DNA of 64,000 nt, taken from contig NZ_JAALJI010000021.1 in NCBI RefSeq assembly GCF_011064595.1, positions 62,001 to 126,000 on the forward strand, given 5' to 3'. Source of the stretch: Paludisphaera soli (GTDB lineage Bacteria; Planctomycetota; Planctomycetia; Isosphaerales; Isosphaeraceae). A program made the translations under genes and the position numbers. The notes beneath the pieces are model-generated. The model saw only the letters and a program-made list of their open reading frames with translations, ran no database searches and was not told the origin of the DNA. Positions 28,021 to 36,088 of the stretch are shown in pieces (positions within the stretch are counted from its first letter, which is position 1; every line of letters starts with the position of its first letter).

Positions 28021-28944
28021 ATGAAGATCAGCGTCGTCGGCATGGGTCGCGTGGGCGGGGCGACGGCGTTCGCGCTGGTGGCCCGGGGGATCCCGCACGA
28101 GCTGGTGCTGGTGGGGCGGACGAAGGAGCGCGCGGTCGGCGACGCGTTCGACCTGCTGCACGCCTCGGCCCTGGTGCGGCCGATGCGGGTCTGGTCCGGC
28201 GACGCGGCCGACACGGCGGGGAGCGACCTGGTGATCCTGACCGCGAGCGCGGCGGCCGACGACCCGGCGAAGGGCCGGGGCGCCAACGCGCAGGCGAACG
28301 CCCGGATGCTCCGCGAGATCGTTCCGCCGCTGGCCGAGGCCTCGCCGTCGGCCGTCTTCGTCGTCGTGACCAATCCGGTCGACGTATGCACTTATGTGGC
28401 TTTGAAGGCCTCGGGCCTGCCGCCGGGCCGGGTGATCGGCACGGGGACCCTGATCGACACGATGCGGTTCCGCGCCTTGCTCAGCCGCGAGACGGGCATC
28501 AGCCCGCAGGACGTCCGGGCGTACGTCCTGGGCGAGCACGGCGAGACCCAGTTCCCCGCCCTCTCCGTCGCCAGCGCCGGGGGCGTGCGGTTCGAGCCCC
28601 GGGATTCGACCGTCCGGGCCTTCGCCGAGGAGGCCCGCCGGGGGGGCCACGAGGTCGCCCGCTCCAAGGGCTTCACCAACTTCGCCGTCGCCCTGGCCGC
28701 CGCCTCCATCTGCGAGGCCGTCGCCGACGACGCCCGCACCGTCCTCCCCGTCAGCACGCTCGTCGACGGGTATAAAGGGGTCGCCGACGTCTGCCTCAGC
28801 CTCCCCTGCGTGATCGGCCGCCGCGGCGTCGAACGCGTGCTGGCCATCGACCTCGACGACGACGAGACCGCCCTCTTGCACCAGAGCGCCGCCGCCATCC
28901 GCGGGATGATCGACCGCGTTGCATCCGATCGACATGCCCCCTGA
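28021..28944 (+). CDS. lactate/malate dehydrogenase family protein
   Basis: An NAD-dependent 2-hydroxyacid dehydrogenase of 307 residues. The Rossmann motif is VVGMGRVGGATA. NPVDVCTY matches the family. The Asp-Arg pair is in GTLIDTMRFR and the catalytic His in LGEHGETQFP. These fit L-lactate dehydrogenase better than malate dehydrogenase. The mobile substrate loop (SAAADDPAKGRG) lacks the usual QKPGE or RKPGM signature, so the substrate is uncertain. The start has AGGTGG upstream. It is 53 bp before the DUF1016 gene but no functional link is evident. Confidence 0.85.
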   Translation: MKISVVGMGRVGGATAFALVARGIPHELVLVGRTKERAVGDAFDLLHASALVRPMRVWSGDAADTAGSDLVILTASAAADDPAKGRGANAQANARMLREIVPPLAEASPSAVFVVVTNPVDVCTYVALKASGLPPGRVIGTGTLIDTMRFRALLSRETGISPQDVRAYVLGEHGETQFPALSVASAGGVRFEPRDSTVRAFAEEARRGGHEVARSKGFTNFAVALAAASICEAVADDARTVLPVSTLVDGYKGVADVCLSLPCVIGRRGVERVLAIDLDDDETALLHQSAAAIRGMIDRVASDRHAP

Positions 28945-28997
28945 AGGCCTTGCGCCCGGGCCCGCCGTCCGGTAGCCTCTCCCCCGGAGGTCTCCGC

Positions 28998-30062
28998 ATG
29001 GCACGCAAGCGAGCGATCGAGTCCGACGCATCCCAGGAGCCCAAGCCCGACGGCCCGCCCGAGGGCTACGAGGCGTTCCTGGTCGACCTGAAGGGGCTCA
29101 TCAAGACGGCCCAGCTCCGGGCCGCGCTGGCGGTGAACCGCGAGCTGGTGCTGCTCTACTGGCGGATCGGCCGCGAGGTGCTGGCCCGCCAGCGCGACCA
29201 GGGCTGGGGGGCGAAGGTCGTCGACCGCCTCGCCGCCGACCTGCACCACGCCTTCCCCGAGATGTCGGGCCTCTCCCCGCGCAACCTCAAGTACATGCGG
29301 GCCTTCGCCGCCGCTTGGCCTGACGAGCCAATTGTGCAGCAGCTTGCTGCACAAATTCCCTGGTTCCACAACTGCGTCCTGATGGACAAGGTCAAGGACC
29401 CCGAGGAACGCGTCTGGTACGTCGGGAAGACGCTGGAGCACGGCTGGAGTCGGAGCATCCTGGTCCTCCAGGTGGAGAGCGGGCTGTACCGGCGGCAAGG
29501 TAAGGCCGTGACGAACTTCCAGGCCACGCTCCCCCCCGCGCAGTCCGACCTGGCCCAGCAGATCTTGAAGGACCCGTATAACTTCGACTTCCTGACCCTC
29601 GGCGACGACGCCCGGGAGCGCGAGATCGAGCGCGGGCTGCTGGAGCACATCCGGGCGTTCCTGCTGGAGCTGGGCGTCGGGTTCGCGTTCGTGGGGAGCC
29701 AGTACCGGCTGGAGGTCGGCGGCGAGGACTTCCACCTGGACCTGCTCTTCTACCACCTGAAACTCCGGGCGTACGTCGTCGTCGAGCTGAAGACGACCGA
29801 GTTCCGCCCGGAGTACGCCGGGAAGATGAACTTCTACCTGTCGGTCGTGGACGACCTGCTCCGGCACCCCCAGGACGAGCCGAGCATCGGCCTGATCCTG
29901 TGCAAGGACAAGACCACCAACACGGTCATGGCCGAGTACGCCCTCCGCGACGTGGGCAAGCCCATCGGCGTCAGCGGCTTCCGCATCGCCGAGTCCTTGC
30001 CGGAATCGTTCCAGGGGACGCTGCCGACCATCGCCGACCTTGAGGCCGAGTTGGGCGATTGA
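28998..30062 (+). CDS. DUF1016 / YhcG family PD-(D/E)XK nuclease
   Basis: A protein of 354 residues. The N-terminal DUF1016 domain (about 30-170) shows LVLLYWRIGREV, GLSPRNLKYMRAFA and AQIPWFHNCVLMDKV. The C-terminal nuclease (about 200-345) has the PD-(D/E)XK core, an Asp in GEDFHLDLLFYH and an ELK in VVVELKTTEF. Relatives are widespread, often in mobile or defence-associated settings, with unclear substrates. No partner gene is here. GGAGG precedes the ATG. Within the gene, 29332-29354 is a perfect 10 bp inverted repeat. Confidence 0.9.
   Translation: MARKRAIESDASQEPKPDGPPEGYEAFLVDLKGLIKTAQLRAALAVNRELVLLYWRIGREVLARQRDQGWGAKVVDRLAADLHHAFPEMSGLSPRNLKYMRAFAAAWPDEPIVQQLAAQIPWFHNCVLMDKVKDPEERVWYVGKTLEHGWSRSILVLQVESGLYRRQGKAVTNFQATLPPAQSDLAQQILKDPYNFDFLTLGDDAREREIERGLLEHIRAFLLELGVGFAFVGSQYRLEVGGEDFHLDLLFYHLKLRAYVVVELKTTEFRPEYAGKMNFYLSVVDDLLRHPQDEPSIGLILCKDKTTNTVMAEYALRDVGKPIGVSGFRIAESLPESFQGTLPTIADLEAELGD
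29332..29354. repeat. perfect hairpin inside the DUF1016 gene
   Basis: TTGTGCAGCA-GCT-TGCTGCACAA, ten paired bases with a three-base loop. It is noticeably more AT-rich than the flanking codons. It encodes IVQQLAAQIPW, a segment well conserved in the family. Confidence 0.6.
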
Positions 30063-30079
30063 AGCTCCGGCCGACCCCC

Positions 30080-31165
30080 TCATCGCTTCGGCTCCAGGTT
30101 CGTCAGGTCGCGGACCTGGATGAGGCGGGCCTTCAGGTCGGGGTTGTAGCGGGACTGGCCGCGGATGCCGACGCGGCGGGCGGTGAGGGGGGCGGGATCG
30201 ACGCCGACGGGGACGTCGAGGTAGGCGACGACGGTCCCCTCGCGGCCGATCAGGGCGAACAGCTTGCGGCCGTCGAGCATCCGCGACGAGGGCTGGATGA
30301 AGCCCACCGCGTCGTACGCCCGGCTCCGCTCGCGCTCGACGTCGGCCAGCCGGCGTTCGAGCCGGGCGAAGTCCTCGTCCAGGTCGCGGGATCGCGAGGC
30401 CGCCTCGACGAAGCTCCGCGCGGCCTTCGCGGCCTTCTCGTACTGGGCCACCTGGGCCAGCCGGGCCTCGACCGCTCGCCGCCTCTCCGGGTCGCCGGCC
30501 TGATCGGCGAGGGACTGGTACGCCTCGCGGATCGCGTCCAGCCGCCACTTCTCGACGGGCTGGCCGGTCGTCTCCGCCAGCAGCATGCCGTCGACCCGAC
30601 GCAGCTCGGCGTCGTCGCCGGGGGCGAGCGCGACCCGCTGGACCTCGGGCGTCGTCGGGGAAGGGGGGGGGGCCGCGTCCCAGGCGACCCCGTCGGCCGC
30701 GACGAAGAACGCCAGCTCCGACGGCGGCGCGATCGCCCGCCAGCGTCGGGGGGAACGGCTGCCGACCTCGGCCGCCGGCCGGTCCACCAGCCGCACCCGA
30801 TCGCCCGGCTCCAGCTTCCCGCAAGGCGGACCCGGCAGCTTCGCCCGCGCATTGCCCGAGCGGACCACGGTCGACGCCCGGACCTTCGCGGCGAGAGGCG
30901 CGCCGTCCTCGGCCTCGTCCAGCTCGAGGGCCGACTCCTCGACCCAGCAGAAGGCCGAGGCCGGCGGATCGATCGCCAGCCAGCCCGGCTTCGGGGCCCC
31001 CGCCGGCCGGACCCGCACCGAGTCGCCCCGCTCCACGGTCGCCACGACGTACCCCGAATCCCGGGCCGCGTCCAGGACCTCCAGCCGATCCGTCACCCGT
31101 CCCTCGACCGTCCCCGCCTGGGCCGAAACCCCCGCCGCCAGGACCAGGAGATGCACGAGAATCAT
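30080..31165 (-). CDS. exported hypothetical protein with SH3-like repeats
   Basis: A protein of 361 residues with a signal peptide (ILVHLLVLAAGVSAQAG). The N-terminal part holds two similar strand-rich units with G-DSVRVRP and GDRVRLVDRP cores and following tryptophans, the pattern of bacterial SH3 domains. The middle (about 195-280) is a charged helical or coiled-coil region rich in Arg, Glu and Ala. The C-terminus (AVGFIQPSSRMLDGRKLFAL and after) is strand-rich. It probably works in the cell envelope; function is unknown. ATG 31165 is preceded by an excellent site, GGAGGTGA. Confidence 0.7.
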   Translation of the reverse strand: MILVHLLVLAAGVSAQAGTVEGRVTDRLEVLDAARDSGYVVATVERGDSVRVRPAGAPKPGWLAIDPPASAFCWVEESALELDEAEDGAPLAAKVRASTVVRSGNARAKLPGPPCGKLEPGDRVRLVDRPAAEVGSRSPRRWRAIAPPSELAFFVAADGVAWDAAPPPSPTTPEVQRVALAPGDDAELRRVDGMLLAETTGQPVEKWRLDAIREAYQSLADQAGDPERRRAVEARLAQVAQYEKAAKAARSFVEAASRSRDLDEDFARLERRLADVERERSRAYDAVGFIQPSSRMLDGRKLFALIGREGTVVAYLDVPVGVDPAPLTARRVGIRGQSRYNPDLKARLIQVRDLTNLEPKR

Positions 31166-31191
31166 CGGAATCACCTCCCAGCCATGTCTTT

Positions 31192-31260
31192 CCTTCCCCC
31201 CTGAGGGAAGGTGGCCCGAAGGGCCGGATGAGGGGGAAGACCAGCACGGAAGCCGTCGGA
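31192..31260 (+). repeat. dispersed structured repeat, variant B
   Basis: The stem CCTTCCCCC-CTGA-GGGAAGG, the hairpin GGCCC-GAA-GGGCC, then GGATGAGGGGGAAGACC and an AGCACGG..GCCGTCGGA tail. It lies 27 bp upstream of the exported hypothetical gene. Confidence 0.75.
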
Positions 31261-31274
31261 GATCGGCTTCGACG

Positions 31275-31792
31275 AATTGGCTTCGTTCGCCCAGGCCGGA
31301 AACGAAGCCATTCGGCGCAACCTGTTGTTCGATTGTTTGTTAAGAGAGGTTTTCGGCTCGCGGAATTGGCTTCGTTCGACGCCGAATCGTCACCTTTTTT
31401 GCGTCCCCATCCCCCAGGCCCTTCGTCGTCCGCGTCGGCCGGGAGGCATCCGTCGCGTTGGCCCTGGATCAATCGAGCCGACTCCCCCTCCTCCTCATCG
31501 CCCCACCGCCTCGTCCTGTTCGCCGGCCGTCCCCACCCTCGGCGATTGGCTTCGTTCGCGCCGGCCGGGAAACGAAGCCATCGGCCATAACGCTCCTGGG
31601 CGTATTGGCTTAAGTGTGGGAATCGGCCCCGCGGATTGGCTTCGTTCGTCCACTTTCTTCGACACTCCTCACTCGGCACCAATGGCACGCGATCTTTGAG
31701 AGGGCCGAACTCGTGGCACCCAGGTCCGAACCTGCCGACGGCCCCGAGCCGTTGGCGTTGAGTGGGGAGTCTCCGGAAATTGGCTTCGTTCG
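31275..31792 (+). repeat. cluster of five ATTGGCTTCGTTCG repeats
   Basis: The 14-mer ATTGGCTTCGTTCG occurs with first bases at 31276, 31365, 31545, 31635 and 31779. Copies 1 and 3 extend into a hairpin: GGCTTCGTT is followed about 13 bases later by its complement AACGAAGCC (31301 and 31571). Copies 4 and 5 instead share CTTTCTTCGA just downstream. The whole 837 bp between 31166 and 32002 has no gene I can support; besides these repeats it holds only one dispersed repeat. Confidence 0.8.
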
Positions 31793-32002
31793 TTCCCTTT
31801 CTTCGATCTTCGGCAAGGCCGTCACTGCGATCCGGGGCGGCCGTCGGCGTCCCGCGGGCGGGAGCCATCAAGAAACAATGCACGCGGGTGGGCGGATAGA
31901 AGTGCGAAATCGCGGAGAAATGCCGAAAGGCTCGCCCGGACGCCCTGAGTCGCGATGCGATGCGCTCCAACCTCGGCTTCGTATCCCAGGCGGGCGAAAC
32001 GG

Positions 32003-33688
32003 TCAACGCGGATCTTCGATCTTTCGGGGGTGCAGGGCGACGTCGGGGATGGTCAGGGATTCGAAGGGTACTTCCTGAAGCCGGAACTCTCGGACCCGAT
32101 CGGGAACGACGGCGAATTCCGCCGTCGTCAGCTCGGCGTTCAGATTGTGCACGACCCGGGGGGCGTCGTCGGTATGCTCGCGGCCGTCGCGGTCGACGGC
32201 GATGATCCGGAAGGGGCGGCCGTCGTCGAGATAGAACCCGCGAACCACCGAGAGGGACGTGCCCCGGCTCGTCGCGACGGCGCCGCCGGAGAGGGTCTCG
32301 ACGACGGAACTGTTCCAGGTCCGGCACTGGAAGGAGCCGGCCCCCATCCCCAGGGTGTGGAAGGTCTGCCAGGGGAGCGAGGCCGCCTCGATCTGGAGGC
32401 TGGTCGTGGCGAGGCTTTTGGGGAACTGCCAGAAGCCGCTCCGCAGGGCGGGGGCCGGTTCGCCTTCTCGCGTGGCCGCGTCGATCGTCGAGAAGCCGGC
32501 GGACGGGGCGAAATCGGTCTTGAGAAGGCGGTTCCCCGGCCTGGAGGTGATTCGCATGACGACCTGACGCGCGGTGAACTGGCCGCCGGGGTTCATGAGC
32601 GGATCCTGGGCGTCGAGCCGCGTGATGGCGTCGCACGGGGCCGGCTTCAGGGGCGAACCATCGGGCCGCCACCAGGAGGTCGGCGAAGCCGGGTAGGTGG
32701 AGAGGCCGAGAATCTCGACCACCGTGCCGTCCGCGAGCCGCCGGGACCATCGTGGGTCGGGCTCGGCGCCGGCCCGCGCGGCCTCCGGAGCCTGGGCTCG
32801 CGAGACGGCCGGCGGATCGTCCGACGGGGCCCGCGTCCGGAACGGGGCACCCAGCGTCGCCGCGCCGAAAACTCCCAGGAGCACGAGAGCGAAAGGCTTG
32901 AGCTTGTTCCACAACATCGCTGTCATCGCTCCTTCGGCGAGGCGGGCGACGGCCGCCGGGACCAATCCCGAAGCGGCCGTCGCGACGCGGGAAGTGGAGG
33001 AGAGCACGGCCTGCGAGACGCCGGCGCGGCACTCGCGGGACAGCTCGGCCATGACGATCCCCGCCAAAGGCGCGAGCCCCCGGCGGGCGAGCCGGCCCTT
33101 GAGGCGTTGGCGGCCTCGGGCGAGTCGGCTCTTGAGGGTCGCGGTCGGCCAGCCCAGCGAATGCGCCGCCTGTTCGTAGGTCAGGCCCTCGTAATCGCAC
33201 AGCTCGATGGGGCGTCGGTACTTCGCGGGGAGGCGGTCCAGCTCGGCCGACACGGCGGCGCACGCCTCGCGACGTTCGGCGGCGATCGCGGGATCGTCGG
33301 CATCGCTCGGCTCGCCGATCGGGGGCGGGAGGTTCCGGGCCTGCCGCCGGATTCGGGCCGCCACCCGGCGGGCGACGCCGTAGAGCCAAGGCCCGAGCGA
33401 GCCGCGGGCGTCCGCCCGGACCGACGCGGCCTTGCGGACGAGCACGAGGAACGTCGCCTGGAATGCGTCCTCGGCGTCGGCCCGATCCGGCAGGCCGCGA
33501 CGGCAGACGCCCCACACCAGCGCCGCGTGCCGGTCCACCAGCGCCGCGAAGGCCGCCTCGGCGCCCGCGTCGGACGGCCCTTCGGCCGACCGGAAGCGTT
33601 CCAGCAACTGGTGGTCGGTCGCCCCCGTGGCGGTCCCGTGGGCCAGAAGGCTTCGCAACTCCGCCGAGGGTGTTTTCGCTCGCGTCAT
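32003..33688 (-). CDS. sigma-70 family factor with membrane-anchored C-terminal domain (copy 1)
   Basis: A protein of 561 residues. The N-terminal 200 residues form an ECF sigma factor. Region 2 is DAEDAFQATFLVLVRKAASV with FAALVDRHAALVWGVCRRGL before it. Region 4 is YRRPIELCDYEGLTYEQAAH followed by LGWPTATLKSRLARGRQRLK. A helical linker follows, then one membrane segment (about 252-275, LKPFALVLLGVFGAATLGAP) and an outside domain of about 285 residues of unknown fold. The layout implies a membrane-tethered sigma factor. It is a close paralog of the next gene, including nearly identical DNA in region 4 and the linker. Confidence 0.88.
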   Translation of the reverse strand: MTRAKTPSAELRSLLAHGTATGATDHQLLERFRSAEGPSDAGAEAAFAALVDRHAALVWGVCRRGLPDRADAEDAFQATFLVLVRKAASVRADARGSLGPWLYGVARRVAARIRRQARNLPPPIGEPSDADDPAIAAERREACAAVSAELDRLPAKYRRPIELCDYEGLTYEQAAHSLGWPTATLKSRLARGRQRLKGRLARRGLAPLAGIVMAELSRECRAGVSQAVLSSTSRVATAASGLVPAAVARLAEGAMTAMLWNKLKPFALVLLGVFGAATLGAPFRTRAPSDDPPAVSRAQAPEAARAGAEPDPRWSRRLADGTVVEILGLSTYPASPTSWWRPDGSPLKPAPCDAITRLDAQDPLMNPGGQFTARQVVMRITSRPGNRLLKTDFAPSAGFSTIDAATREGEPAPALRSGFWQFPKSLATTSLQIEAASLPWQTFHTLGMGAGSFQCRTWNSSVVETLSGGAVATSRGTSLSVVRGFYLDDGRPFRIIAVDRDGREHTDDAPRVVHNLNAELTTAEFAVVPDRVREFRLQEVPFESLTIPDVALHPRKIEDPR

Positions 33689-33826
33689 GGATCCGTCCGT
33701 CGTGGCCCCAGTCGAATCGCCTTCCCACCCCTATCATGCCGTGATGCGCGCGATCGGCCCCGACTTTCCCGGGGATCGCCGGGAAAGTCGGGGCGCGGGG
33801 CGTGGCCGGACCGCCGGGCGGCCCGC

Positions 33827-35491
33827 TCAGCGGGGCGCGGGGCCGATCGGGCTGGTCGCGACGTCGGGCATCAGGATCTCGTCGCAGGGGCGCGTCTGGA
33901 CGCGGAATTCGCGGATGGCCTCCGGGGGGAGGGCGAATTTGGCGATGAGTTGCTGGAAGCCGCCCGCCGAGGAGGAGCCGACGCGGCTGGGCGATTGTTC
34001 CTTGCCGCTCGCGTCGACGGCCAGGACTCGGAGCGATTCGCTGCCCCCGACGTCGTGGGCCAGGCAGAGAGTCGACCCACCCCCCCCGTCGGCGATCGCG
34101 CCGCTGGATATGAGGCTCCGCCCCTTGCCGCCGCCGGTCGAGCTGGCCTGAGTGTCCAGAGTCTTCACCGTCTCCCAGGCGTCGCACGAGACACGGAACC
34201 GGACCGTCAGGCTGGTCGTCGATCGGGGGAACGTCGCCAGGATCGCGTGCGAAGTGGTCGATGGATCCTCGTCGGAGGTCGGCAGATTCTTGTAACCGAT
34301 CGTGTCCGCCCCGTCGATGAGCGCGAGGACTTGGCCCCCATCGGGCCGACCGGCGACTCGGTAGACGATCGCCAGCCGGGTCGATCGGTCGGAGACGACG
34401 GCCGACTCCGTTACCGAGGTCAGGAAGTTTGGTTGAAAATCAGGGCTCTTCATCGATCGGCCGTCGGGCCGCCACCAGGTCTTCGGACTATCGGGGATCG
34501 GCGAGACCGCCATGATTTCCAGCCGCATCCCATTCGGCAGTTGACGGGCCCAACGCGTGTCGGGTTTGTCGGCCGTCCGCTCCTGGCCAGGAGCGGAACC
34601 GGTGACGGGAGGGGGCGGCTTGTCCGCTTGGCGAGGCAAGGTCCACGCCACGGCCAGGCTCGACGTGCCGACACCGCATAGGACGAGAATGGCGAGGGGC
34701 TTGAGCTTGTTCCACATCATGGCCTGGGTCGCTCCTTCGGCGAGGCGGGCGACGGCCGCCGGGACCAGTCCCGAAGCGATCGTCGCGACGCGGGAAGTGG
34801 AGGAGAGCACGGCCTGCGAGACGCCGGCGCGGCACTCGCGGGCGAGTTCGGCGGCGACGGCTCCCGCCAAAGGCGCGAGGCCGCGGCGGGCGAGCCGGCC
34901 CTTGAGGCGTTGGCGGCCTCGGGCGAGTCGGCTCTTGATCGTCGCGGTCGGCCAGCCCAGGGAGAGCGCCGCCTGCTCGTAGGTCAGGCCCTCGTAATCG
35001 CACAACTCGATCGGGCGTCGGTACTTCGCGGGGAGGCGGTCCAGCTCGGCCGACACGGCGGCGCACGCCTCGCGACGCTGGGCGGCGATCGCGGGATCGT
35101 CGCCGGTCGCCGGCTCGACGACGACCGTGGGCCGTCGCGCGGCGGCTCGCCGCTGGCGGGCGGCGACCTTGCGGGCGACGCCGTAAAGCCAGCGGCCGAT
35201 GGAGCCTCGGTCGTCGACCCGGACCGAGCTTGCCTTGCGGACGAGGACCAGGAACGTCGCCTGGAACGCGTCCTCGGCGTCGGCCCGGTCGAGGAGCCCG
35301 CGACGGCAGACCCCCCAGACCATGGCCGCGTGGCGATCCACCAGCGCGGCGAAGGCGGCCTCGGCGGCCGGGTCGCCGGCCCCGGATCGCGACCGAAACC
35401 GTTGCAGCAACTGGTCGTCGGTCGATCCCGTCGCGGTCCCGCCGGCGAACAGGGCCCGCAGGCCCCCCGGCGCGGGGGTGGATCGGATCAT
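33827..35491 (-). CDS. sigma-70 family factor with membrane-anchored C-terminal domain (copy 2)
   Basis: A protein of 554 residues, paralogous to the downstream gene. Region 2 reads DAEDAFQATFLVLVRKASSV and region 4 reads YRRPIELCDYEGLTYEQAAL then LGWPTATIKSRLARGRQRLK. The membrane segment is at about 255-280 (LAILVLCGVGTSSLAVAWTL). The C-terminal domain (about 290-554) is less like its paralog, but keeps a WWRPDG motif and a similar ending (AIREFRVQ against VREFRLQE), so the two domains are homologous and diverging. ATG 35491 is preferred for a GGAGG upstream; ATG 35569 is in frame without a site. The two genes are 138 bp apart. Confidence 0.88.
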   Translation of the reverse strand: MIRSTPAPGGLRALFAGGTATGSTDDQLLQRFRSRSGAGDPAAEAAFAALVDRHAAMVWGVCRRGLLDRADAEDAFQATFLVLVRKASSVRVDDRGSIGRWLYGVARKVAARQRRAAARRPTVVVEPATGDDPAIAAQRREACAAVSAELDRLPAKYRRPIELCDYEGLTYEQAALSLGWPTATIKSRLARGRQRLKGRLARRGLAPLAGAVAAELARECRAGVSQAVLSSTSRVATIASGLVPAAVARLAEGATQAMMWNKLKPLAILVLCGVGTSSLAVAWTLPRQADKPPPPVTGSAPGQERTADKPDTRWARQLPNGMRLEIMAVSPIPDSPKTWWRPDGRSMKSPDFQPNFLTSVTESAVVSDRSTRLAIVYRVAGRPDGGQVLALIDGADTIGYKNLPTSDEDPSTTSHAILATFPRSTTSLTVRFRVSCDAWETVKTLDTQASSTGGGKGRSLISSGAIADGGGGSTLCLAHDVGGSESLRVLAVDASGKEQSPSRVGSSSAGGFQQLIAKFALPPEAIREFRVQTRPCDEILMPDVATSPIGPAPR

Positions 35492-36088
35492 CGTTTCGCC
35501 CGCCTCCGCCTCGAAGTCCCGAAACCCTCGCCCCTGACATGCGGGGAGTCGCCCGATCGGCCCCATCATTTTCCGAAAAGGATCTTCGATTCGCGCCCGT
35601 CAGGTCGAAAATCCGGGGGCCGAGCCGACGTGGTTCGGGCGGGATGTCGTGGAGCGCGAGGGTGGGCCCGTCCCTCCACCCCGATGTTCGTCGAAGAGCC
35701 GGGCGTGGTGGCCAGAGCCGCGGCGAGCCGGGGACGGACCCGCATGAGAGACTCGGCCGGTGCACGGCGTTCCACGACCTGGCGCGGCCGCAGCAGGCGC
35801 CACGCCGCAGGGCTCGCCCGAGTGTTCAAGGGGGGGACGATCTGGGCAACGCCCGCGTCGGAGGGGGCGGCTTGCCGACCGTCAGGGGAGAAATGGTAGG
35901 GGGCACCCCTCCGGGCGGCTCCGTCCCCCTCTTTGCTGCGGTCCCGGACTTGGAGGAGCATCCGCATCGTCCAGCGTCAGCCGTCCTCATGATCGGCGGG
36001 CGGAGGGGGATGTCAACACCGGGCGCGAAGAGCCGGATCCGAGATCGACGGCCGATAGCCGCCTTTCACGCGAAGGGAGATGATCACG
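35492..36088. other. 597 bp intergenic region, no gene supported
   Basis: Lies between the divergent sigma-factor gene and the dihydrofolate-reductase-like gene. A 133-codon minus-strand frame at 35566-35967 has no ribosome-binding site or domain and is judged non-coding. No hairpin terminator or clear promoter pair was found. Confidence 0.5.

Follow-up and report, generated by a model that had tools for sequence, protein, structure and literature searches.

An intergenic repeat array with a promoter-like module in Paludisphaera soli, one locus of a possibly transcribed element of several Isosphaeraceae genera

Array locus and unit anatomy

The window analyzed here is a stretch of 64,000 nucleotides from Paludisphaera soli, whose genome (~8 Mb; G000) was compared with those of five congeners (G001 to G005) and of further relatives, among them G059 from another genus. 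An array of short repeats occupies the region between two minus-strand genes called with a home-made codon model: 30080–31174, whose product has no Pfam match, and 32003–33688, which encodes a sigma-70-like protein according to Pfam. An earlier note on this DNA had likewise described the region as gene-free. Two very long open reading frames of the window, 28392–34187 (−) and 30059–31204 (+), overlap the array or the called genes and are probably spurious; GC-rich DNA here readily gives false gene calls over arrays. The sigma-70-like gene belongs to two adjacent paralogues with long C-terminal extensions (32003–35569), the first of which has at least 32 matches in G000 and at least 35 in several congeners. 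Immediately past the stop codon of the sigma-like gene, ~30 bp (window ~31975–32002; loci L072, L073, and L075; CCGTTTCGCCCGCCTGGGATAC...) appeared by eye to be conserved in G000, G001, and G002, and less so in G004.

Five exact copies of a 14-mer lie on the same strand of this region, as the earlier note had reported; they start at 31276, 31365, 31545, 31635, and 31779, and the spacings given in the note (89, 180, 90, and 144 bp) follow from these coordinates. Its span of 31275–31792 delimits the right region, with the start placed one base early. When up to three mismatches were allowed, the window contained 10 matches, compared to 3.57 ± 1.87 in 100 shuffles (largest value 9). The 14-mer is not the element itself, as had been supposed, but rather an arm of a larger composite, to which a core, a second module, and a motif resembling a promoter also belong, together with a boxA in relatives.

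A unit comprises arm A (ATTGGSTTCGTTCG), an AT-rich core in which AA and TT stand 21 bp apart, and arm B at 82 or 90 bp past arm A; its middle arm is the same word inverted. Unit 1 of the window begins with an exact arm A (31276–31289, +), followed by a middle arm identified as an inverted-repeat match (31301–31311, −) and a core placed by the geometry of the unit alignments (31316–31341), where the AA of CGCAA stands 21 bp before the TT of TTAAG; an exact arm B lies at 31365–31378 (+), 89 bp after arm A. The same order is found in unit 2, with an exact arm A (31545–31558, +), an inverted-repeat match as the middle arm (31571–31581, −), and a core (31586–31611, placed by the same alignments) in which the AA of CATAA stands 21 bp before the TT of TTAAG. 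Its arm B (31635–31662, +) is an exact match that continues into a CTTTCTTCGA tail, and a solitary arm B with exact match and tail is present at 31779–31806 (+). These two arms, the fourth and fifth copies, have in common a 28-nt stretch that is 93% identical and contains CTTTCTTCGA, which bears out the shared extension described earlier. Between them, after the tail of the first, lies a short and decayed copy (31665–31769) of another repeat, palindromic and MITE-like, which is here termed P and has ends CTCCTCACTCAACACC; the ends of this copy match at C112:93665 (+) and C112:93754 (−), with two mismatches each. The spacings of 89 and 90 bp are therefore within-unit distances and 180 bp leads from unit to unit, while 144 bp results from the insertion of P. 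Beyond the last arm is module C (31850–31913, +), a weak member of its class (matrix score 11.9), inside which a −10-like CATTGT (31875–31880, −) constitutes a putative promoter directed leftward through the array.

This anatomy recurs throughout G000. From 60 merged stretches (359 kb), with motifs less than 160 bp from a stretch end excluded, we drew 63 full 90-class units, in which arm A was required to lie 87–93 bp before arm B with at most six mismatches in all. The spacing was 90 bp in 36 units, 89 in 13, 91 in 9, and another value in 5. Since these units were preselected on spacing, the unbiased evidence comes from all same-strand arm pairs; these were commonest at 90 (36) and 89 (13), followed by 82 (10) and 91 (9), which confirms the phase of about 90 bp raised in the earlier note. 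The distances from arm A to AA (44 bp) and from AA to TT (21 bp) are the same in G000, G002, G003, and G005, and several of 20 stretches from G059 show by eye an arm A, CGYAAG, an AT-rich core, and a ATTGGCTTTG-like arm B. Species differ in the details of arm B: T has a frequency of 0.97 at position 10 in G000, compared to 0.49 for T and 0.45 for A in G003, and the tail is TTT-like in G000 and AAA-like in G003. The core spacers of the 63 units are mostly unrelated to one another, with a mean identity of 0.525 compared to 0.506 in the outside flank and a maximum of 0.72 compared to 0.71. Coding DNA was rejected as an explanation, given that none of the 63 units falls inside a called gene, in keeping with the intergenic clustering considered earlier, and that an A–B spacing of 82 or 90 bp breaks any single reading frame.

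Repeat P (~105 or 190 bp; G000, G002, and G005) is a MITE-like palindrome that adjoins array units in several regions. Words resembling its ends occur in 16 of the 60 motif regions of G000; the left end lies 27–31 bp after the motif start in 8 of those 16 regions, and in three regions, the window included, 20 bp separate the right end from the motif that follows. With up to two mismatches, P ends were counted 32 times in G000, 35 in G002, 24 in G005, 10 in G004, and 3–4 in the other two congeners. The longest blastn match among the 60 regions (C1:363760 with C116:73195; 354 bp at 81% identity) runs across P and adjoining unit sequence and indicates that not all copies are old. Other matches measured 150–290 bp at 66–85% identity and many of them involved P, which is the cause of many of the longer matches between regions. 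Movement or exchange of part of the mosaic is evident from P and from some of the shared stretches. On the whole, the arrays are very probably an old and conserved composite element.

Distribution, inheritance and chromosomal spacing

The 14-mer, with at most one mismatch, occurs 253 times in G000, compared to once for the reversed word, a frequency that is not random. Its congeners contain 215 (G002), 260 (G003), 74 (G005), 31 (G001), and 14 (G004) copies, and among 53 other relatives the count was 78 in G023 and at most 17 in all others. A search for TTGGSTTCGNTCG across 45 genomes of the family gave 31–326 matches within the genus, 161 in G023, 96 in G062, 60 each in G059 and G060, and 17–35 in several more family genomes, with 0–9 for a control word. 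The suggestion of a lineage-specific, interspersed, non-coding element is thereby upheld: among the genera searched, abundance is clearly above background only in some Isosphaeraceae. An 18-mer scan of named genomes yielded at least 42 matching stretches, mostly single matches in unrelated taxa.

With respect to neighboring genes, 22 of the 63 G000 units are in the tandem context +E+ and 20 in −E−, 13 lie between convergent and 7 between divergent genes, and 1 is at a contig end. By region, 12 of 59 with the motif are convergent, 7 divergent, and 40 tandem, compared to 13, 35, and 93 of 141 without it (Fisher p = 0.037 and 0.056), contig-end regions being omitted (1 of 60 with and 29 of 170 without the motif). 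A contiguous 1.2-Mb stretch of G003 holds 15 arrays, of which 6 are divergent, 4 convergent, and 5 tandem; as this mix differs from that of G000, no cross-species rule follows. Full units within one intergenic region of G000 all point the same way. Counting single motif hits, inverted middle arms included, orientation was the same in 52 G000 regions and mixed in 6; neighboring B-type hits in G002 had the same orientation in 19 cases and opposite orientation in none, and 2 of the 15 G003 arrays were mixed. Called genes in the contiguous G003 stretch contain 5 of 77 array arms and 15 of 22 lone arms. Replication-strand polarity was considered and rejected on the basis of orientation runs in G002 (z = −1.85) and of the G003 listing, judged by eye; GC skew was flat across 20 G003 samples.

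The locus of the window has been inherited in place. Its flanking genes lie side by side in the fetched loci of G001 (73.8 and 51.6% identity), G002 (74.0 and 65.8%), and G004 (58.4 and 44.1%), and by eye all three carry same-orientation arms in between: G001 and G004 have a core-like stretch flanked by two diverged arms, and the printed part of G002 has one arm. The gene pair is absent from the fetched loci of G003 and G005. Six further regions are common to G000 and G003, with the same orientation in all six; both flanking genes matched in two of them and one in four. These came from a comparison of the flanks of 90 G003 loci with sampled G000 stretches, in which 14 loci matched, six of them being the shared regions. 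Three G003 matches (L116, L139, and L215) were to one paralogous gene family, in two (L213 and L224) the array is on another side and in opposite orientation in G000, and in three (L159, L160, and L165) the matched G000 place has no array. Because 76 of the 90 loci lacked a flank match in the sampled G000 stretches, most positions are not demonstrably shared. At another region, beside one conserved gene, a unit is present in G000, G002, G003, and G005; G001 has only a core-like relic there (by eye) and G004 has another gene.

Array loci recur roughly every 90–110 kb. Clusters of exact matches are evenly spaced in two genomes, as measured against a null of uniform placement, as distinct from placement in long intergenic regions. 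In G000, 35 within-contig gaps averaged 85 kb with a CV of 0.48 (null 0.90; 0 of 20,000), and a single gap was shorter than 25 kb, compared to 25% expected; these values derive from 100 listed places, leaving out C176 and C187 (one further gap of ~115 kb). The 58 clusters of G002 (77 of 80 places, main contig) averaged 113 kb with a CV of 0.55 (null 0.95; 0 of 20,000). Evenness was weak in G003, where 58 clusters, their starts transcribed by hand from 100 of 117 places, gave a CV of 0.73 (p = 0.013). Within the contiguous 1.2 Mb of that genome, a weight matrix located 14 arrays of at least two arms (mean 88 kb; CV 0.64; p = 0.074), and evenness was lost once lone arms (22, of which 15 fall within genes) were counted as well (37 clusters; CV 0.96; p = 0.55). 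Control families were unevenly spaced, with CVs of 1.24 for P repeats in G002 and 1.11 for sigma paralogues in G003 (19 listed of 35 places). The even spacing suggests a chromosome-wide role.

Module C, boxA and tests of RNA structure

Module C was found beyond the last arm by an EM motif search with a likelihood gain of 187, compared to 49–59 in four shuffled runs, which were lighter in having fewer seeds and rounds. The refined matrix, trained on the same 60 motif regions that it scored, exceeded 10 in 48 of them in array orientation, in 1 of 60 when reversed, and in 4 of 170 motif-free regions; in 37 of these 48, the last arm was followed at 72–117 bp by the core of the module. When the G000 matrix was applied to 40 loci of G003, 9 scored above 8 and none did so reversed or upstream, and many other G003 loci have, by eye, a similar but different word. 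The two most conserved bases of the module, relative to a GC-rich background that favors A and T, are the A and T of the minus-strand −10-like hexamer. Judging by its sequence, module C resembles a promoter directed back across the array; the arrays showed no clear −35.

Both rRNA leaders of G003 contain the boxA word GCTCTTTGACAAT 336 bp before the 16S gene. With up to three mismatches, boxA was present ahead of 31 of 40 G003 arrays that had been chosen for exact motif copies, or 32 of 40 when the search window was extended by 14 bp on the arm side and lengthened by 30 bp on the other; controls gave 0 of 40 for the reversed word, 1 of 40 on the other strand, and 1 of 40 at the far end. In the unselected 1.2-Mb stretch, boxA was found at 6 of 15 arrays and its reverse at none. 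At up to two mismatches it was found at 4 of 15, with the word occurring 17 times and the reverse 9 times in the 1.2 Mb. TANNTT lies 18–52 nt before boxA in 19 of 32 G003 arrays, compared to 4 with the window reversed, and 38 G003 leaders aligned on the best TACATT-like hexamer, which was itself selected, revealed GTCGTA.ATTCA-like flanks 26–47 nt before boxA.

Outside G003, boxA stands beside motif loci in G005 (14 of 27; reversed and other-strand controls 2 and 1), G062 (11 of 15; 0 and 0), G023 (4 of 8; 0 and 1), and G025 (1 of 1), the repeats that bear the motif in the last three genomes being built differently. It is scarce in G000 (6 of 60; 1 and 1), G002 (1 of 24; 0 and 0), and G059 (2 of 20; 0 and 1), and G000 loci anchored on module C have it in 7 of 46 cases (control 0). 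The leader in the window lacks boxA, with the best match having five mismatches and lying upstream of the −10.

Several related sequences were encountered alongside these searches. A G003 boxA with at most one mismatch lies outside arrays and 16S leaders at G003:C1:35940 (L371), and others at the same threshold are found near rRNA operons at 123964 and 214897. Seven loci of G062 (L347, L348, L349, L354, L355, L360, and L363; motif at 1501) belong to a dispersed repeat of ~350 nt. A long fold is predicted for this repeat, which also has a boxA-like word and a GC-rich hairpin followed by a T-run. Changes on both sides occurred in 7 of its 72 pairs, the covariation term was only −0.02, and the four of these loci that were scanned gave no Rfam match; this repeat is a candidate multi-copy structured RNA. 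Locus L089 (G025:C1:3704500-3707500) contains at ~892–1570 a tandem 24-bp unit with TTGGGTTCGTTCG (25 matches with at most one mismatch), directly followed by a boxA-like ATTGTCAAAGATC.

The inverted repeat behind the hairpin of the earlier note is present: two of the copies have a perfect 10-bp inverted AACGAAGCCA 13–14 bp downstream, but it amounts to an extra inverted copy of the arm that is absent from G003 units and shows no covariation. Single unit copies fold well when predicted alone. A hairpin of arm A and middle arm was nonetheless rejected, as the bases at its C/G position are independent (21 C-C, 21 C-G, 9 G-C, 7 G-G, and 5 other; n = 63). Pairing of arm A with its own middle arm was not or barely higher than with swapped ones (6.62 vs. 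6.28 in G000, 6.70 vs. 6.72 in G002, and 5.72 vs. 5.77 in G005), and the inverted middle arm was at shuffled level in G003 units. An RNA helix formed by the core was also rejected, with own complementarity below swapped in G000 and G003 and at 3.77 compared to 3.71 in G002 (p = 0.41). Excess structure was not seen in 39 units (160 nt around the last arm; z = −0.19, compared to −0.66 for control intergenic DNA), and no consensus RNA fold was found for module C. Rfam covariance models gave no match at gathering score in the 20 loci scanned, out of several hundred, and two weak, sub-threshold matches in the window stretch. The pairing tests argue against an RNA hairpin.

Interpretation and comparison with known systems

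We propose that the window contains one locus of intergenic, non-coding, promoter-led repeat arrays that occur in several Isosphaeraceae genera, are transcribed, and perhaps organize the chromosome, a reading to which we assign a probability of roughly one half (about 0.48). On the minus strand, such a locus would consist of the promoter-like module C, boxA in some species, and then units in the order arm B, AT-rich core, and arm A. RNA polymerase would transcribe the array as an untranslated RNA, with Nus-factor antitermination possibly used as on rRNA and CRISPR arrays; a protein would recognize arms and core, either on DNA or on unfolded RNA, and the arrays may help to organize the chromosome. 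The promoter-like module and the boxA of relatives suggest that an RNA is made across the array and stays untranslated, and on this sequence evidence transcription appears somewhat more probable than its opposite. It is from the even spread, together with the independence from gene direction in G000, that we infer a chromosome-organizing role, which we regard as rather unlikely when taken as a separate claim. The most specific version, in which one locus per ~90 kb would make an untranslated, Nus-antiterminated, unfolded array RNA and DNA and RNA would together recruit a protein that partitions the nucleoid into even domains, is unlikely.

The strongest alternative, which we consider rather unlikely, is that the arrays act solely as DNA, providing clustered sites to which a nucleoid-associated or boundary protein binds, with module C and boxA being incidental or relics. 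The fixed spacing of arms and core around unrelated spacers is what such sites would display, and the same applies to the missing covariation between arm A and middle arm or between core halves, the lack of excess RNA structure, the 22 to 20 split of G000 tandem cases with no gene-direction preference, the even chromosomal spacing, and the general absence of boxA from G000, G002, and G059. However, boxA is found where expected and on the expected strand in G003 and G005, it stands beside the related repeats of G062, G023, and G025, and in 48 of 60 regions the orientation of module C with respect to the array is maintained.

Quite unlikely is a second alternative, that the arrays are mobile elements or their fossils, whether a MITE or mosaic family or ends of the Tn7 or Mu type, now largely immobile. 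Multi-site transposon ends resemble repeated direct arms in an end-like module, and target immunity of the Tn7 type would give even spacing. Consistent with this are the direct arms and the spacing of the arrays, the related motifs that G062, G023, and G025 carry in dispersed or tandem repeats, the MITE-like P attached to array units, the 354-bp stretch common to two regions, and the many G003 loci whose flanks found no match in the sampled G000 stretches. Against it stand the ceiling of 0.72 on core-spacer identity for every pair among the 63 units, the positions common to diverged species, and the 215 motif copies of G002, a genome with no Y1 transposase match. A maintained element accounts better than recent mobile repeats for the conserved geometry, unrelated core spacers, gene-independent orientation in G000, and inheritance in place.

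A role as leaders or regulators of neighboring genes is very improbable. The putative transcript of the window does head toward the gene that follows on its strand (31174 to 30080), and in the contiguous G003 stretch the transcribed array strand runs along the flanking genes in 5 of 5 tandem cases, but the near-equal tandem split in G000 and the 13 of 63 units located between convergent genes are at odds with it. Uptake sequences have species dialects, and the arrays similarly combine a short conserved word and unrelated flanks with species dialects of arm B and tail, yet words kept by biased DNA uptake are scarcely credible here given the strict multi-site geometry, the core, module C, and a total of only a few hundred copies.

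If the proposed arrays are transcribed, boxA antitermination would serve chromosome-wide non-coding arrays in addition to rRNA and CRISPR. The planctomycete nucleoid is condensed, and the arrays, if their even spacing is functional, would offer a sequence handle on its organization. Should both the RNA and the domain-partitioning reading be true, they would form a class of chromosome-organizing RNA loci without a described equivalent. Knowledge of the element also provides a way to recognize spurious open reading frames over arrays.

Among known systems, no apparent description of the element was seen in the open-access literature, as judged mostly by titles and abstract starts, and it matches no repeat family or RNA found described in that literature and in the Rfam searched. 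The TAACTGA repeats of Beggiatoaceae (169 sets of short direct repeats in one draft genome, intergenic according to the title) resemble the arrays as sets of short intergenic direct repeats; they differ in their word and in lying directly upstream of start codons, and the accessible part of the paper mentions neither core nor boxA (PMC4679880). As regards MITEs, no inverted ends were noticed on the units and there were no near-identical copies, whereas the neighboring repeat P, unlike the units, has inverted ends of the MITE type. The Y1 (RAYT-type) transposase PF01797 has no match in G002 and 1–5 in the other five of six genus genomes, and neither tag of the GTAG/CGTC-tagged REPs, as given in the accessible text (PMC3733652), is present in the arm consensus, a comparison at consensus level.

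REP/BIME elements are, according to the accessible part of the source, short intergenic motifs in composite mosaics with more than 100 copies per genome, to which several proteins bind (PMC2817692); to that extent, the arrays are alike in motif length, intergenic position, mosaic build, and copy number. The REP/BIME unit is a short imperfect palindrome, whereas arms A and B are direct repeats of a single non-palindromic word; REP/BIME elements alternate, whereas full array units point one way; and the arrays differ further in having a promoter-like module, with boxA in some species. The same boxA word links the arrays of G003 to rRNA operon leaders, although the G003 rRNA promoters show by eye a likely −35 TTGACC that was not seen at the arrays. 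BoxA is also reported upstream of natural CRISPR arrays (Stringer et al., cited in the accessible part of PMC7862264), and, as far as that source describes them, the likeness extends to the succession of promoter, boxA, and repeat array. The arrays differ from CRISPR in lacking unique equal-length spacers, in having two classes of A–B spacing and degenerate arms, and in their 14-bp repeat and location at tens of loci per chromosome. For an RNA derived from repeats and acting on nucleoid condensation, E. coli offers a precedent: REP325 encodes the nucleoid-associated RNA naRNA4, and according to the accessible part of that report its loss decondenses the nucleoid (PMC6907758).
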